Assembly (NCBI GenBank): GCA_002788135.1
Contig: PFQT01000053.1
Location: forward strand, 1 to 39,862
Direction: 5' to 3'
From: Candidatus Yonathbacteria bacterium CG_4_8_14_3_um_filter_46_25
GTDB lineage: Bacteria; Patescibacteriota; Minisyncoccia; Phycocordibacterales; UBA1539
DNA: 39,862 bases
The translations under genes and the position numbers were made by a program. Below the pieces are notes generated by a model, which saw only the letters and a program-made list of their open reading frames with translations, was not told the DNA's origin and did not search any database. Position 1 is the first letter of the stretch, and the number at the start of each line of letters is the position of its first letter. Shown here piece after piece: positions 3,922 to 39,862 of the stretch.

Positions 3922-5352
3922 TTAGTATCGTTTCCATAGAGAATCTTTTTTAATGCTTATTCCCAAATCAACTCTTTGTCTATTAGATATTTCAGCAGGC
4001 GCGTTCATTATTAAGTCTTTACCATCGCCAGTCTTCGCGAAAGCAATCACTTCTCTTATATTTAGTTCTTGTTCAAGAATCATCATGAGTCTATCGAAAC
4101 CCCACGCAATGCCTCCATGGGGGGGAGCCCCAAGTTCCAATGCTTTCAACATATGGCCAAAATTATTTTCTATTCTCTCATTGTTGTAACCCATAATTTC
4201 GAAAGTAGTTCGGAGAGCGGAAGGTTTGTGGTTCCTTATGCTTCCACCCCCAATTTCAAGCCCATTCAAAGTAATGTCGTATTGCGTGGTAAGAATTTCT
4301 CCAATACTCTCTTTGCTCATAAATTTTTCAAAATCTTCGTCTCTTGGTTTTGAAAAAGGATTGTGAGTGAACGTCCACTCGCCGGTGCCATCAACATTAT
4401 CTTCTCCTGTCTTTTCAAACATGGGAAAATCTACAATCCAAAGAAATGCAAGAAGATTTGCGTCTGTCTTGTCTTCTCTTATATCAGGTCTGTCATTTCC
4501 ATACTTCCCCATTGCTTCTTTATAAGGCATTCTCGGAAAGGGTATTTGTTGTATTCTTTTTTCAGGATAATATTTTTCTACAATAGAAATCAATATTTTC
4601 TCATTTAGCTGAATAATATCTTCTTCGGTAACAAAAGACATTTCCATATCAAGCTGGGTAAACTCAGGTTGCCTGTCGCCACGAGTATCTTCATCTCGCA
4701 TACAGCGTGCAAATTGAAAATACTTTTCAAAACCACTAACCATTAAAAGTTGTTTATATTGTTGTGGAGATTGAGGAAGAGAATAAAAGCTTCCTTTGTA
4801 AATTCTACTTGGCACAACATATGAACGAGATCCTTCGGGCGTCGGTGCAGATAAAAGGGGCGTTTCTATTTCTAAAAAGCCATCTTTTTCAAGATAATTT
4901 CGAATGAAATTTTGAATTTTAAATCTATTTGCAATATTTTTGTGCATTCTGTCGCTTCGTAAATCCAAATATCTGTATTTAAGACGAATAGATTCGTTCA
5001 CCTCTCTAGTATCACCACTAATCGGGAACGGCAAAGTTGCCGATTCATTTAAAACATTGATGTGCAAAATCTCAAGTTCTATATCTCCATTTAGTATTCC
5101 TGATTTTTTATTTTTCTCGGGTCTTTCATTAACCTTTCCGGTAATTTCAACTACAAATTCTTCTCGTAGAGTTTTACCAATCTCCATTGCGTTACTATTC
5201 GGCAATATCACACCTTGTATGATGCCTGATGTATCACGAAAATCCAAAAAAATCATTTTCCCTTGATCACGACGAACATTTATCCAACCATAAATAATCA
5301 CCGTTTCCTGTTTTTTTTCTGATAATTCATTTATGTAGGTTCTTTGCTTCAT
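3922..5352 (-). CDS. aspS: Bacterial-type aspartyl-tRNA synthetase lacking the GAD insertion domain
   Basis: GSRSYVVPSR..YSLPQSPQQYKQLLMVSGFEKYFQFARCMRDEDTRGDRQPEFTQLDMEMSF; PPHGGIAWGFDRLMM; IREVIAFAKT; only 476 aa. Confidence 0.95.
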   Translation of the reverse strand: MKQRTYINELSEKKQETVIIYGWINVRRDQGKMIFLDFRDTSGIIQGVILPNSNAMEIGKTLREEFVVEITGKVNERPEKNKKSGILNGDIELEILHINVLNESATLPFPISGDTREVNESIRLKYRYLDLRSDRMHKNIANRFKIQNFIRNYLEKDGFLEIETPLLSAPTPEGSRSYVVPSRIYKGSFYSLPQSPQQYKQLLMVSGFEKYFQFARCMRDEDTRGDRQPEFTQLDMEMSFVTEEDIIQLNEKILISIVEKYYPEKRIQQIPFPRMPYKEAMGKYGNDRPDIREDKTDANLLAFLWIVDFPMFEKTGEDNVDGTGEWTFTHNPFSKPRDEDFEKFMSKESIGEILTTQYDITLNGLEIGGGSIRNHKPSALRTTFEIMGYNNERIENNFGHMLKALELGAPPHGGIAWGFDRLMMILEQELNIREVIAFAKTGDGKDLIMNAPAEISNRQRVDLGISIKKDSLWKRY

Positions 5353-20361: not shown

Positions 20362-21729
20362 TTATTTTTCGAGCTCAAACTCGATGAGCTTATTGAGCTC
20401 GAGCGCGTACTCGAGCGGAAGCGCTTTTATGACGGGACCGACGAATCCAGACACAATAAGCTTGATCGCCTCCTCTTCGGTGTATCCTCTGCTTTTGAGA
20501 TAGAAAATTTCTTTCTCGCCGATACGACCGACGCGTGCTTCGTGAGCGACGCTCACTTTGTCATTGTGTGTCTTGACCGCCGGATAGGTATTTGATTGTG
20601 ACTTGTTGTCGAGAATGAGCGAATCGCACACAACGGATGACACCGCGTTCTCGGCGTTCGCCGCAATCTTCACCATTCCCCGATATTCCGCAATCCCGCC
20701 ATCTTTTGAAACGGACTTCGAACGAATGATCGAGGTGGTGTTGGGCGCGCGGTGGTCGGCTTTCGCGCCGACATCCTGTATCTGCCCCGCTCCGGCGAAC
20801 ACGATTCCCGTGCTCTCAGTGCGAGCACTGTCGCCAAGAAGAATGGACGACGGATACAGCATGGTCACCGCCGATCCCATGTTGCCGTTGAGCCATTCGA
20901 TCGAACCGTGCTCATAGACAAGCGCGCGCTTGGTGTTCAAATTGTAGGTGTTGGCCGACCAATTCTCAATGCTTGAGTATTTCATCCGCGCACCCGGAAG
21001 CACAAAGAGCTCGACGCACCCGGCATGCAAAGACGATGCGTTGTAACGCGGCGCCGAACATCCTTCGATATAGTCCACGCTCGACCCTTCGTCGGCGATG
21101 ATAAGCGTGTGCTCGAACTGCCCTGAGCTCGGACGGTTCATGCGGAAATACGCCTGAAGCGGCATCTCAACGTGCACACCCTTCGGAACATAGATGAACG
21201 TTCCCCCGCTCCACACCGCGCCGTGGAGCATCGTGAACTTGTGGTCGCCCGCGGGGACACATTCCGACATAAAATATTTTTTGACAAGCTCGGGGTGTTT
21301 CTTGAGTGCTGTATCCATGTTCTCGAAGATTACCCCTTTGTCGGCAAGTGACTTTTTGAGGCGATGGTACACGACGCCGGAATCATACTGCGCGCCAACA
21401 CCGCCGAGATAATCGCGCTCAGCTTTCGGGATGCCAAGCTTCTCGAATGTTTCTATCACATCTTTGGGCAATTCCTTCCAGTCGTCTGATTCGGCAACAC
21501 CCGGGTCGGCATAGTAGCAGAGATTTGGCAGATCAAGACCGGAGAGGTCGGGGCCGAATTTCGGAAGCGGCGTCTTTTGGTACAAATCAAAGGCCGCGAA
21601 TCGTTTCTCGCGCATCCACTCCGGCTCGCCCTTGTGCTCGGAAATATACTCAACAAGCTCGCGAGAAAGCCCCTTCAACATGCTCGGAGTAAGTTCTTTA
21701 TTGTGCTTTGTGTCCATTGACATATTCAC
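20362..21729 (-). CDS. sufB: Fe-S cluster assembly protein SufB
   Basis: Full-length SufB (455 aa): GTFIYVPKGVHVEMPLQAYFRMN; EGCSAPRYNASSLHAGCVEL; ISRGYTEEEA-like SRGYTEEEAIKLIVSGFV. Confidence 0.95.
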   Translation of the reverse strand: MNMSMDTKHNKELTPSMLKGLSRELVEYISEHKGEPEWMREKRFAAFDLYQKTPLPKFGPDLSGLDLPNLCYYADPGVAESDDWKELPKDVIETFEKLGIPKAERDYLGGVGAQYDSGVVYHRLKKSLADKGVIFENMDTALKKHPELVKKYFMSECVPAGDHKFTMLHGAVWSGGTFIYVPKGVHVEMPLQAYFRMNRPSSGQFEHTLIIADEGSSVDYIEGCSAPRYNASSLHAGCVELFVLPGARMKYSSIENWSANTYNLNTKRALVYEHGSIEWLNGNMGSAVTMLYPSSILLGDSARTESTGIVFAGAGQIQDVGAKADHRAPNTTSIIRSKSVSKDGGIAEYRGMVKIAANAENAVSSVVCDSLILDNKSQSNTYPAVKTHNDKVSVAHEARVGRIGEKEIFYLKSRGYTEEEAIKLIVSGFVGPVIKALPLEYALELNKLIEFELEK

Positions 21730-21769: not shown

Positions 21770-21816
21770 CTATCTCATTCCACTTGGGAGTCGGACTCCC
21801 AAGTGGAATGAGATAG
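21770..21816. repeat. 47-bp perfect palindrome, CACTTGGGAGTC-S-GACTCCCAAGTG family, site 1
   Basis: ctatctcattccacttgggagtc-g-gactcccaagtggaatgagatag. Confidence 0.97.
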
Positions 21817-22120: not shown

Positions 22121-23479
22121 TTAATAATTCCGCAAACGGCGCACTTTGTCATGATGGCGGATTTTTTCGAGTGCCTTTGCTTCGATCTGGCGGATGCGTT
22201 CACGGGTGACTCCGAACTCTTTTCCTACTTCCTCAAGGGTGTGCATCACACCGTCAATGAGTCCGTGGCGAAGCTCCAATATTTTGCGCTCTTTGAGCGA
22301 GAGGTCGTTCAAAATATCCTTGATCTGGTCGGTCAATATTCGTCGAGCCGAATCCTGATCGGGTGAGAGTATTTTATCGTCAGCGATAAATTCTCCGAGA
22401 GTTGATTTGTCCTCGTCATCACCGATCGGCTTCTCGAGAGAAACCGTACCGTGATCAATCTTCGTGATCGTGTGGATCTTCTCGACATCAACTCCCATTT
22501 CAGTCGCGATCTCTTCGGGAAGCGGTTCGCGGCCAAGGTCCTGCGAGAGCCGACGGAACACCTGCTTGTATTTCGCGATCGTCTCCACCATGTGAACTGG
22601 GATACGAATCGTGCGCGATTGGTCGGCAAGCGCACGCGTGATCGCCTGCCGAATCCACCATGTTGCGTACGTTGAGAACTTAAATCCTTTCGTCCATTCA
22701 AACTTATCAACCGCCTTAAAAAGCCCCAGGTTCCCTTCCTGAATAAGGTCAAGGAGTGTCAGGTCAGGACTTCGGCCGACATATTTTTTCGCTATTGAAA
22801 CAACAAGCCGCAAGTTTGCGCGAGCAAGGAGATTGCGCGCCTCTTCATCGCCCGCCTCGATTCGTTGTGCAAACTCACGCTCTTCCTGCGCCGTCAAAAG
22901 CGGATACTGCCCAATTTCGCGCAGATACATCTGGATCGAATCATATGAAGAATCGCGACCACCATAGGTGTATTTCTTCCCCAAAACTTCTTCATCCGCG
23001 GCATCCAAAAGTCCGCCGCTATCGAGGATGTCAATACCGGCATCGGAGAATCTTTCATAGAGAACATCGAGGAAAGTGATATTCTCCTCGATCTTCGGAA
23101 AATGCTTAAGCATCTCGTCATAAGTAATGAATCCGCGTGAGCGCCCCTTTTCAATGAGCACTTTGGAATTTTTTTCAAAATCGTCATGGCCGCGGGGCGC
23201 TTTTTTGCGGGGTGCTTCCTTCGCGGGAACTAGCTTCGCTTTCTCTGACTTAATCACTTTTTTCTTCGCAACGGGAGTTTTCTTTTTTGCGGAAACTGCT
23301 CGCGCGCTTACCGTGCCATTCCTTAGTGGAGAGGTAGTTTTGCGTTTTGTCGTAGACGCGCTCTTTCGCGGGGCGGTCTTCACATGAAGTTTCGACACAC
23401 TGCGAGCGCGAGCTGGTTTCTTTTTAAGCATTGTCTTTTTTACCGCGCTTGATTGCTTTATTTTTGCCTTGGTTGCCAT
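22121..23479 (-). CDS. rpoD: RNA polymerase primary sigma factor with Lys/Ala/Ser-rich N-terminal tail
   Basis: YAQ-type region 2: [48 protein letters not shown]; region 4: [40 protein letters not shown]. Confidence 0.96.
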
Positions 23480-35980: not shown

Positions 35981-36244
35981 ATGATGTCAGAAGGAGTACC
36001 GCAAGACAGCGGGCAAACAAACGCGTTCCCCGCCGACAAAGATGAGAACGAAGAGAAGAATGAGAAAAAGAACGAGGACAGAAATAATGGACAAGCAACT
36101 GCTGTTCATGTTACTGGTGGTGCGGGTGGCGTCCCCCCGCAAGGAGACGGCACGGGGAAATTCATACGAGTCCATAAAGACGGCACGACCGAAAGAACGA
36201 ATAATCTGAAACCAGATGACAATTGGCCACCAGAGCACAATTAA
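35981..36244 (+). CDS. Small hydrophilic hypothetical protein
   Basis: MMSEGVPQDSGQTNAFPADKDENEEKNEKKNEDRNNGQ...; followed by a terminator at 36270-36296. Confidence 0.5.
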   Translation: MMSEGVPQDSGQTNAFPADKDENEEKNEKKNEDRNNGQATAVHVTGGAGGVPPQGDGTGKFIRVHKDGTTERTNNLKPDDNWPPEHN

Positions 36245-36269
36245 TTTCCACCTTATCCGGAACAACATG

Positions 36270-36296
36270 TCCCGCCTTTAGCGGGATTTGTTTTTT
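36270..36296 (+). terminator. Rho-independent terminator
   Basis: tcccgc-cttta-gcggga then tttgtttttt. Confidence 0.8.
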
Positions 36297-36324
36297 GGAC
36301 AAAAACCACTATCATAAAAAAAAT

Positions 36325-38268
36325 ATGATTGATAATGACGCGCATTTTATCGGAACCATCAGGATCACCGCGCGTGGAGACGGATATGTTTCCCCTACCG
36401 GCAGAAGGGACGACAGCGTCAAAATAGACCACGTTGATCTCAATACCGCACTCCACGGCGACACGGTTAACGTATTCCGACATCCGAAAAAAACTGGGGG
36501 AGAAGAGCGTGGGGAAGTGATTGAGGTTATGAGGCGGACAAAAGATGTTTTTGCCGGCGTGTTGGAAAAAAATAACGGCTCGTATTTTTTCGTGCCTGAC
36601 GATCAGAAGATGTACATTGACATTCTCATCCCGGAGCAATCTCTTGCGGGAGCACGAAACAAAGAGAAGGTGGTCGTGCGCATCGCCAAATGGAACGACC
36701 CGAAAAAAAATCCGGAAGGAGAAGTAATCAAGGTGCTGGGGAAACCGGAAGATAACAACGTCGAAATGGAGTCAATCGTCTACGATAAAGGGTTTTTAAT
36801 CGAATTCTCAAACAAAGTGGAACGAGAAGCGCTCAAGATACAAGCTTCCGCGCGGCGCGATATCGAAGAGGAAGCGCCGAAGCGAAAAGACATGCGGGGT
36901 GTCACGACGTTCACCATCGACCCAGCAACGGCAAAAGATTTCGATGACGCTATCTCGTTCCGTGAATTGCCGAATGGGAATATCGAGGCGGGAGTGCATA
37001 TCGCTGATGTTACCCACTATGTACGGCCCGGATCGATAATCGAAGATGAGGCGCGGAAACGCGCAACATCAATCTATCTTGTCGATCGGACGATCCCCAT
37101 GCTTCCCGAAGAACTCTCAAACGACATCTGCAGTCTGAAGCCGAACGAAGATCGGCTGGCATTCTCGGCGATATTTACATTCAAAAAAGATTCCCTCGCG
37201 CCCGGCGCAAATCCCGAAATCATCGATCAATGGATTGGCGAAACGATCATCAATTCAGACAAACGTTTTTCCTACGAGGAGGCGCAGGGTGTTTTGGATG
37301 GAAAAGACGGGCCGTTTCGTCATGAACTCAAGACCCTTAATGTGTTGGCAAAAAACTTGCGTGCTGAGCGCATCCGTGCCGGAGCGATCATGATTGAACA
37401 AGACGAGATAACATTTTCGCTCGATGACCGAGGAAAACCCGAGAGTGTGGCAATTAAGGTTCATGGCGACACGAATGAGCTCATTGAGGAGTTGATGCTC
37501 CTTGCCAATCGCGCGGTTGCTGAAGCAATGACTGGCACGCCGGAGACCAAAAAGCGTACATTCATTTTTCGCATACACCCGAAACCCGAAAGCGACCGAA
37601 TCGCCGAACTTGCGGAATTTCTCGGAACGCTCGGATACTCGCTCAAGCCGGGACTCACGAACCTCTCCCATGGCCTCAACACCATCCTCAAGCAATCGGT
37701 GGGTACCGAGGTCGAGCATATCGTCCATACCGTTACCATCCGTTCATTGCAAAAGGCGGTGTATTCAACACAAAATGTCGGGCACTTCGGACTCGCGTTC
37801 AAATATTACACCCATTTCACCTCCCCTATCAGGCGCTACCCGGACATGATGACGCACCGGCTCGTAAAAACATATCTTGCGGGAAAAACGGTGCCGCCTA
37901 ATGAAGCGGAATGCTATGACAGCGACGCGCGGCACTCAAGCGAGATGGAACAACGCGCCGCGGAAGCCGAGCGCGATTCGATCAAGTACAAACAGATCGA
38001 GTTCATGATTGAGCGTGGCGGAGAAACATACGAGGGGATCATTTCCGGCGTAACTGATTGGGGTATCTATGTCGAAGAAAAAACAACCAAAGCAGAGGGA
38101 CTTATTCGTCTGCGCGACATCGGCAACGATTATTACGTCCTTGATAAAAAGAATCACGCCATCGTCGGAGAGAAGCGCGGGAAGCGATATCGTCTCGGAG
38201 ATACGGTAAAAGTCAGAATAAAAGACGCAAACTTGGAACGTCGAACGGTAGATTATCTACTAGTGTAG
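36325..38268 (+). CDS. rnr: Ribonuclease R (RNase II/RNB family)
   Basis: TFTIDPATAKDFDDAISF; HIADVTHYVRPGS; HFGLAFKYYTHFTSPIRRYPDMMTHRL; C-terminal S1 domain. Confidence 0.95.
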   Translation: MIDNDAHFIGTIRITARGDGYVSPTGRRDDSVKIDHVDLNTALHGDTVNVFRHPKKTGGEERGEVIEVMRRTKDVFAGVLEKNNGSYFFVPDDQKMYIDILIPEQSLAGARNKEKVVVRIAKWNDPKKNPEGEVIKVLGKPEDNNVEMESIVYDKGFLIEFSNKVEREALKIQASARRDIEEEAPKRKDMRGVTTFTIDPATAKDFDDAISFRELPNGNIEAGVHIADVTHYVRPGSIIEDEARKRATSIYLVDRTIPMLPEELSNDICSLKPNEDRLAFSAIFTFKKDSLAPGANPEIIDQWIGETIINSDKRFSYEEAQGVLDGKDGPFRHELKTLNVLAKNLRAERIRAGAIMIEQDEITFSLDDRGKPESVAIKVHGDTNELIEELMLLANRAVAEAMTGTPETKKRTFIFRIHPKPESDRIAELAEFLGTLGYSLKPGLTNLSHGLNTILKQSVGTEVEHIVHTVTIRSLQKAVYSTQNVGHFGLAFKYYTHFTSPIRRYPDMMTHRLVKTYLAGKTVPPNEAECYDSDARHSSEMEQRAAEAERDSIKYKQIEFMIERGGETYEGIISGVTDWGIYVEEKTTKAEGLIRLRDIGNDYYVLDKKNHAIVGEKRGKRYRLGDTVKVRIKDANLERRTVDYLLV

Positions 38269-38301
38269 TTAGTTTAGGATATTGAAAAGTTCATGAATTA
38301 C

Positions 38302-38330
38302 CCCACTTGGGAGTCCGACTCCCAAGTGGG
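38302..38330. repeat. 29-bp perfect palindrome, same core family, site 2
   Basis: cccacttgggagtc-c-gactcccaagtggg. Confidence 0.97.
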
Positions 38331-38594
38331 TGGAGTTTTGGTACTATATTGAAATTTCACCATACTGTATTACGATGCCCCTCTACACGAAATAACCACG
38401 TCCCTGAGTTCCAGAATTAATTACAACGCTTGTTTAGTAAAATAGACAAGTATGAAATATGTAAATAATCGAAAACATAAAGATGGTAATCCTTTCTCGC
38501 TTTGCGAAAGGAGTATTATCGAAGTAAGATGGTGCCGAAATTTTAAAAACATAACCGAGATGACCAAAAAGTTACTAACCTTTTCCACATAGGT

Positions 38595-39513
38595 TATATT
38601 AGACCAACTGCTCAATAATATTCCAACCAGTCAACTTAAAATATCGGCATTGTTTCTCTGGTTATGTTTCAGATTATAAAGTCCAGCCACAATTACAAAT
38701 TTTGCGTTATAGGTTTTGAGAGCATTTCTAAATCTGTGAGATAATATTCTCCACTGTTTGAGCGAAGTAAAAACATGTTCAACCACAATACGTATATGGC
38801 TGTGTTTTTTGTTGTGTACCTGCTCTTTCTTGGTAAGTAGCTGATACTTTAAAGCATTGTACGGAAGATGCAGATTAGTGCCCAAATATCCCATTTCAAT
38901 TTTACCTCTGCTTGATCATACAAATTTTTGTCATGAAAATTTCCTGACATTGATTTTGACACATACTTGATTCGTCCTTTAATATCAACCACTACTTATG
39001 TTTTAACGGTTTGTTTCTTTTTCTTTCCGGAATATCCCGAACCGGATCGTCTTTCTGTTTCCTGTTCAGTGGCATCAATAAAAAATTGTATTTCTTCTTT
39101 GGTAAGATGTATTTTTTCAATCGTAATTTTCTTCATTTTTCGGTAGAGTATCGGTTCCAGTTTTTTGAAATACCGGCAGACCCGTGAATCATCAATATGA
39201 AAAAAACTCTGCCAACATCATATGACTCATATATGTGCGAGTATACAAAAAATACATAGCAACCATCTGTTCAAATGATGGTTTGTATTGAATGCCTCTA
39301 CCCACCGCCCTTTTTCTTGGGTAGGCTGATTTTCTTTTGTGTTCTGCTTCTTGCCACAATAGTTCAAGTTCTTTGATTAAATCGTTAAACTGCTTCGGTG
39401 AAATACCAAAAAAATGACCAAAGACCTTTGGTCTTTGGGAGAGTTTGCGTATATTCATACCCTGTATTATGTATTATACTACAATATATTAGTTAAGCAG
39501 TGGGTCTAATATA
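38595..39513 (-). mobile_element. IS5-family-like insertion sequence with imperfect terminal inverted repeats
   Basis: Left tatattagaccaactgctcaa versus right-end reverse complement tatattagacccactgcttaa. Confidence 0.8.
38631..39458 (-). pseudogene. Fragmented DDE transposase (IS5/DDE_Tnp_4-like)
   Basis: N-terminal ORF 39192-39458 and C-terminal ORF 38631-38894 (RIVVEHVFTSLKQWRILSHRFRNALKTYNAKFVIVAGLYNLKHNQ) separated by disrupted frames. Confidence 0.8.
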
Positions 39514-39541
39514 TGTTCATGAGATAAAGGGTGTATGATCA

Positions 39542-39770
39542 TCTCATCACCGGAACGCGACCGCAAGAAGCTGGATCGCCGCCAACATCTCATGGCTCCG
39601 CACGGCGCGCTTCCTCGGTTACGCTCCTGGATTGAACCCGATTAAGTATCTGTGGTCGACGACATCTCGGCAATCTTTCCGATCTCTCCGTAATCGGTAC
39701 GGCGTTGCGTTCCTATCGAAGAAAGGTCGGGAACCTCGACCTTCTCGGCGGGTTCCTGTGAGCGAACGGA
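39542..39770 (+). pseudogene. IS630-like (DDE_3) transposase C-terminal remnant
   Basis: SWIAANISWLRTARFLGYAPGLNPIKYLWSTTSRQSFRSLRNRYGVAF; YAPxLNPxxYLW motif. Confidence 0.6.
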
Positions 39771-39773
39771 CTC

Positions 39774-39854
39774 TTTATATAACATCTGTGGCAAAGTACA
39801 TCACTTGGGAGTCGGACTCCCAAGTGATGTACTTTGCCACAGATGTTATATAAA
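39774..39854. repeat. 81-bp perfect palindrome, same core family, site 3
   Basis: tttatataacatctgtggcaaagtacatcacttgggagtc-g-gactcccaagtgatgtactttgccacagatgttatataaa. Confidence 0.97.
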
Positions 39855-39862
39855 TACTTCTG

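Follow-up and report, generated by a model that had tools for sequence, protein, structure and literature searches.

Contig PFQT01000053.1 of Candidatus Yonathbacteria bacterium CG_4_8_14_3_um_filter_46_25 (Patescibacteriota) ends in a perfect palindrome of 81 bp, whose core links it to a gene for a REP-associated tyrosine transposase (RAYT; REP, repetitive extragenic palindrome) on another contig, C49, of the same genome. The stretch of DNA analysed here (the window, 39,862 nucleotides) covers all 39862/39862 bases of its contig (G000:C62), in a genome of 828 kb and 65 contigs that is 99% complete. The window edge is therefore a true contig end, which the initial annotation, made from the sequence alone, had supposed only conditionally. 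As that annotation had described, the palindrome consists of two 40-nt arms, 100% complementary over their whole length, around a 1-nt spacer (40+1+40), and 8 unrelated bases separate it from the contig end. Arms of this kind would be expected by chance anywhere in 40 kb with a probability of <1e-18. Folded as single-stranded DNA, the 81 nt reach -44.5 kcal/mol (z -16.9), and no shuffled sequence folded as well.

The contig tip is a nest of transposase remnants, in which an IS5-type remnant is followed by an IS630-like one and then by the palindrome (Table 1). An IS630-like remnant directly before the palindrome had also been annotated; it has weak support, from a DDE_3 match below the curated cut-off.

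Repeat family and cognate transposase gene

The terminal palindrome belongs to a family of 11 copies in the genome (one with a mismatch), which share the 25-nt CACTTGGGAGTCGGACTCCCAAGTG or its inner 21-23 nt. The window holds three of them, against a shuffle expectation of 0.00, which bears out the family core that the initial annotation had placed in the middle of the palindrome. The half site ACTTGGGAGTC is confined to the family copies; since it never occurs outside the palindromes, a DNA-uptake-type signal was rejected.

Five Y1 transposases are encoded in the genome, one of which sits among three family palindromes on C49. One palindrome lies directly upstream of the ATG, one directly past the stop codon, and one within the gene in frame, where it translates as SLGSPTPK. 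The core of the terminal palindrome is thus the cognate core of this RAYT gene. The encoded protein carries an HYH (HuH) motif and, where the Y motif is expected, YINKN. Its top NCBIfam match is REP_Tyr_transpos (24.3 bits, sub-threshold against a cut-off of 80), of which it is, judging from sequence, a divergent relative.

An order-level search covered 297 genomes, 103 of which contain a RAYT relative at E <= 1e-30, and the layout was analysed in 71 RAYT loci of related Patescibacteria. Because a palindrome search was used to pick the palindromes at these loci, symmetry does not count as evidence, whereas shared cores and a fixed phase do. A palindrome is found upstream of the gene in 53 of the 71 loci and downstream in 48. 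Within the gene, palindromes lie near codon 60, before HuH (40 loci), and near codon 155, just after the Y motif, YVNLN (26 loci), which places the two in-frame copies on either side of the catalytic HuH-Y core. The reading phase is identical for 64/66 in-gene palindromes. While the cores vary widely by locus (TGGAGG, TGGCGG, TGGGAG, TAGACG, CAGGGA, and others), the same core 6-mer is shared within a locus by the upstream and first in-gene palindromes in 34/35 cases, by the upstream and second in-gene palindromes in 22/22, and by the upstream and downstream palindromes in 37/42. Shuffling of loci gave mean core identities of 2.7-4.9 (p <= 1e-4 for the observed sharing). RAYT loci of the order generally show this layout of four places, with cores that are locus-specific. 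Two core types coexist at L115, L161, L140, L117, and L132, which look as if caught mid-change.

Cores shared per locus and distinct between loci, together with the recurring layout, point to a REP/RAYT-type system that lacks the canonical GT[AG]G foot. On these sequence patterns, the terminal palindrome is likely a REP-like mobile hairpin belonging to the C49 RAYT gene, which would encode a Y1/HuH single-strand transposase. In the way proposed for TnpAREP and REPs, the RAYT protein would cut and rejoin the folded single strand and thereby spread the core, and the terminal copy would have landed among dead transposons. The suggestion of an element was right in kind; the element, however, is the RAYT-linked REP-like palindrome rather than an IS630 element with its boundary here.

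At the RAYT loci (L101-L170, L075), an extended -10 box (AAGTGnTATAAT) often lies immediately next to the upstream palindrome. A match of at least 5/6 to TATAAT directly follows it in 76% of loci versus 42% in shuffles, at exactly equal offset in 16/50. This suggests that the upstream palindrome is an operator, through which the RAYT protein may control its own promoter. The same arrangement bears on whether the palindromes are intrinsic terminators or regulatory hairpins of neighbouring genes, with their symmetry under RNA-level selection. One window copy does lie 34 bp past the stop of an RNase R-like gene, and gene-trailing hairpins often terminate transcription. However, an upstream copy abutting a -10 box is probably in untranscribed DNA, some copies lie inside reading frames, and a U tract is not consistent among copies. 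Furthermore, unrelated loci have a fixed core, the same as in the C49 RAYT copies, and Rfam gave no match in 38200-39862. Terminators are therefore a very unlikely account.

The proximity of copies to IS630/IS5 remnants, and one copy inside a transposase gene on C42, would also fit remnants of miniature inverted-repeat transposable elements with two abutting inverted ends, moved by a DDE transposase. Such an origin would leave the matching cores at fixed places in and around RAYT genes of many genomes unaccounted for. Target-site duplications are not apparent at the family copies compared, and no DDE element bearing the family ends as terminal repeats was seen in this analysis, so that this origin appears highly improbable.

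Table 1. Positions of the palindromes, their parts, and associated genes (window coordinates unless a contig is given).
Feature	Position	Strand	Remarks
81-bp perfect palindrome	39774..39854	.	Arms 39774-39813 and 39815-39854; centre base G at 39814
Family core CACTTGGGAGTCGGACTCCCAAGTG	39802..39826	.	Identical to palindromes around the C49 RAYT gene
Left outer arm	39774..39801	+	Symmetric; only inner 14 nt common to another family copy
Right outer arm	39827..39854	+	Inner part common to C42:126-139; at contig end, least secure part
RAYT gene	C49:11681-12352		Pfam Y1_Tnp PF01797, E 1.1e-8; HYH (HuH) motif
IS630-like (DDE_3) transposase remnant	39545..39682	+	E 6.6e-4, under curated Pfam cut-off
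IS5-type (DDE_Tnp_4) transposase remnant, frame-shifted	38601..39480	-	E 3.4e-10
Second window copy	38302..38330	.	Arms 14 nt; 34 bp past stop of RNase R-like gene (36223-38268)
Third window copy	21770..21816	.	Arms 23 nt; intergenic; flanked by sufB-like (20362-21729, -) and rpoD-like sigma-factor (22121-23479, -) genes

Another RAYT gene of the host genome (L068, G000:C47) is accompanied, ~711 bp after the gene start, by a different palindrome, CTCATAGGTAGGTC G GACCTACCTATGAG, which probably represents a second cognate family. The gene content and the relatives of the window indicate Patescibacteria; among named genomes, exact core matches come nearly all from Parcubacteria-type metagenome-assembled genomes (MAGs). 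A core inside a 5.2-kb reading frame (L085:4629-4651) lies on a contig of a MAG labelled Acidobacteria, which is either a mis-binned Patescibacteria contig or a case of horizontal transfer.

Outer arms and the contig end

Beyond the 11-nt core half, the ten perfect family copies carry 10, 1, 4, 7, 8, 0, 2, 12, 3, and 29 extra symmetric pairs. The bases of these extensions differ copy by copy, that is, they are locus-specific yet symmetric. Since at least 7 extra pairs would arise by chance with a probability of <1e-4, the arms are real features. Symmetric locus-specific extensions of at least 6 bp were also found in about 20 other RAYT-linked copies, and the closed one-contig genome G105 holds 8 copies of another core with 0-11 such pairs; therefore, arm extension is not an assembly artefact in general. 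The copies on C11 (L062 ~4177-4265) and C35 (L063 ~4073-4147) have ~80 bp of flank in common at 88% identity, so units larger than the core can be duplicated. Their other arm is perfect in C11 and imperfect in C35, a pattern that would be expected of quasi-palindrome correction.

The ~28 symmetric pairs outside the shared core of the terminal copy would have arisen at that locus itself. Two routes can be proposed: template switching on the hairpin during replication, which is known to make perfect hairpins (PMC8794818) and would place a reverse copy of one flank onto the other, or a new core replacing the top of an older stem. A REP spread by RAYT and lengthened by one of these routes is the most likely history of the stem.

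The terminal arm could instead be a fold-back artefact of sequencing or assembly: a short core palindrome at the end of a read or fragment would have primed a copy of the left flank, which the assembler then retained as contig tip. Only 48 bases lie past the centre, at the very contig end, and the terminal extension is the longest of all copies. However, the symmetry stops precisely at 40 nt, with 8 unrelated bases behind it, and other long symmetric arms were found in contig interiors as well as in a closed genome. Moreover, the inner 14 nt of the right arm and the centre base recur inside contig C42 (100% over 44 bp), and the inner 14 nt of the left outer arm are the reverse complement of the C42 flank GATGTACTTTGCCA. 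This sharing of 14 nt after the core half, plus the centre base, supports the right arm apart from its outer 14-15 pairs, and a fold-back is regarded as unlikely.

Some observations weigh against a RAYT-spread hairpin. The C49 RAYT is divergent (24 bits versus 80), with no credible match in the PDB by sequence. The canonical GT[AG]G foot is missing from 11/11 genome copies, with either side checked. Finally, the 29-bp extension is longer than in every other copy examined, and an extra cause for it, artefact included, is possible.

Of the 11 family copies, three are located no more than 150 bp from a contig end, where 0.19 would be expected (P = 6e-4). Long palindromes are a known source of sequencing trouble (PMC4057610). 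The contig thus probably breaks at the hairpin, in agreement with the assembly break that had been proposed at the outset; short-read sequencing or assembly would have failed at an 80-nt hairpin among repeats. Hairpins of this type can end contigs, which should be kept in mind when such assemblies are read. The initial annotation had further considered a real DNA end, for which the long perfect palindrome at the contig end would speak, either as a hairpin telomere or as a replicated-telomere junction of a linear replicon. This idea did not hold up and is extremely improbable: 8/11 copies lie more than 150 bp away from any contig end, the core recurs inside contigs, and palindromes occur within genes in other species. 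The suggested look-up of a protelomerase (ResT/TelK) gave no match to PF16684 at E <= 1 in the 99%-complete genome.

Replacement and exchange of cores

The C42 palindrome lies within an IS481-like transposase gene and occupies 25 nt where intact relatives have about 30 nt, so sequence was replaced, not only added. This copy fits replacement better than simple loop insertion. Insertion into the loop of a natural hairpin was rejected, as excision of the core would leave loopless perfect palindromes in several copies. Presence or absence of a palindrome at the second in-gene RAYT site often makes no difference to gene length.

A methyltransferase-like gene of one genus offers orthologous sites in several states. 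Two species lack exactly 21 nt (empty site), and G105 has a palindrome bearing the core of its own RAYT. The palindrome of G252 corresponds to that of G105 in place and length, and over 31 nt it is identical to the one at the RAYT of G252 itself. A decayed palindrome with the G252 outer arms is present in a third species. These states argue for either a net 21-nt insertion followed by in-place core exchange or repeated insertion at one site. Since the filled sites match the core of each species' own RAYT, cores look exchangeable in place. Such exchange is not universal: for two further G105 sites, L177 and L178, the core type is unchanged in the G252 ortholog.

The family is one with unusual modes of spread, whose sequence changes in step with the RAYT gene. 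From these comparisons, we tentatively raise the possibility, itself rather doubtful, that patescibacterial RAYTs swap hairpin tops in place besides inserting palindromes. A new cognate core would replace the stem top at a fixed position, with length, frame, and lower stem kept. If true, such swapping would account for why up to four sites within one RAYT locus have concerted cores, why the orthologous methyltransferase site holds different cores, each cognate to its own species, and why outer arms, for example the 28 pairs at 39774-39854, are symmetric and locus-specific.

At L206 and L211, the G252 orthologs of G105 copies, insertions of ~457 and ~587 bp lie at or beside the palindrome. Both contain other palindromes (GACGAATTTCC...) and possibly represent another small element that targets palindrome sites.

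Relation to known palindrome systems

The closest known systems are the REPtrons of E. coli, Stenotrophomonas, and Pseudomonas, formed by REPs and TnpAREP/RAYT (PMC8266576, PMC6006769). In both cases, short dispersed palindromes flank one Y1/HuH transposase-like gene, and each gene has its own palindrome family. Unlike REPtrons, the patescibacterial system has no GT[AG]G foot and few copies (11, compared with classical REPs); its palindromes are perfect, with 1-5 nt loops and symmetric locus-specific outer arms, and in-frame copies lie at two fixed places in the gene. The foot is also missing from subclass 2.6 and class 3 (PMC6006769). Subclass 2.4 TnpAREP likewise has a cognate REP inside the transposase gene with the frame intact (PMC6006769); in contrast, the sites described here lie before HuH and just after the Y motif, and the foot is absent. 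The survey in PMC6006769 sampled complete genomes, and its text makes no mention of Parcubacteria, Patescibacteria, or CPR (candidate phyla radiation). No published description of such a RAYT layout in Patescibacteria was found in a search that left most subscription journals outside.

Template-switch hairpins and quasipalindrome correction (PMC8794818, PMC3820800) likewise provide a mutational route to perfect locus-specific stems. Neither is known as a companion of REP systems, and both are proposed here from sequence patterns.

It is still unsettled by what mechanism REPs spread (PMC8266576), and the pairing of each RAYT with a REP of its own leaves the joint change of all copies unexplained. 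The patescibacterial loci may serve as a tractable system for this question, given their small genomes, few copies, and up to four matching-core palindromes per gene, as well as mixed-core loci (L115, L161, L140, L117) resembling intermediates, and orthologous sites in empty, old-core, and new-core states.

In-frame palindromes in unrelated genes are also known from Rickettsia palindromic elements and other intragenic REPs (PMC3733652), whereas those described here are linked to a RAYT gene with the same core. In other Patescibacteria, the same palindrome was observed in frame in housekeeping genes (L092:1758-1780, L090:3376-3398, L094:2198-2220, and L095:4173-4195), the hosts being genes for NAD-dependent DNA ligase (between HhH and BRCT), alanine racemase, TsaD, and a class I tRNA synthetase. 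The tRNA synthetase frame (L095:1528-5001) also contains a full histidine-phosphatase domain inserted within the synthetase domain.
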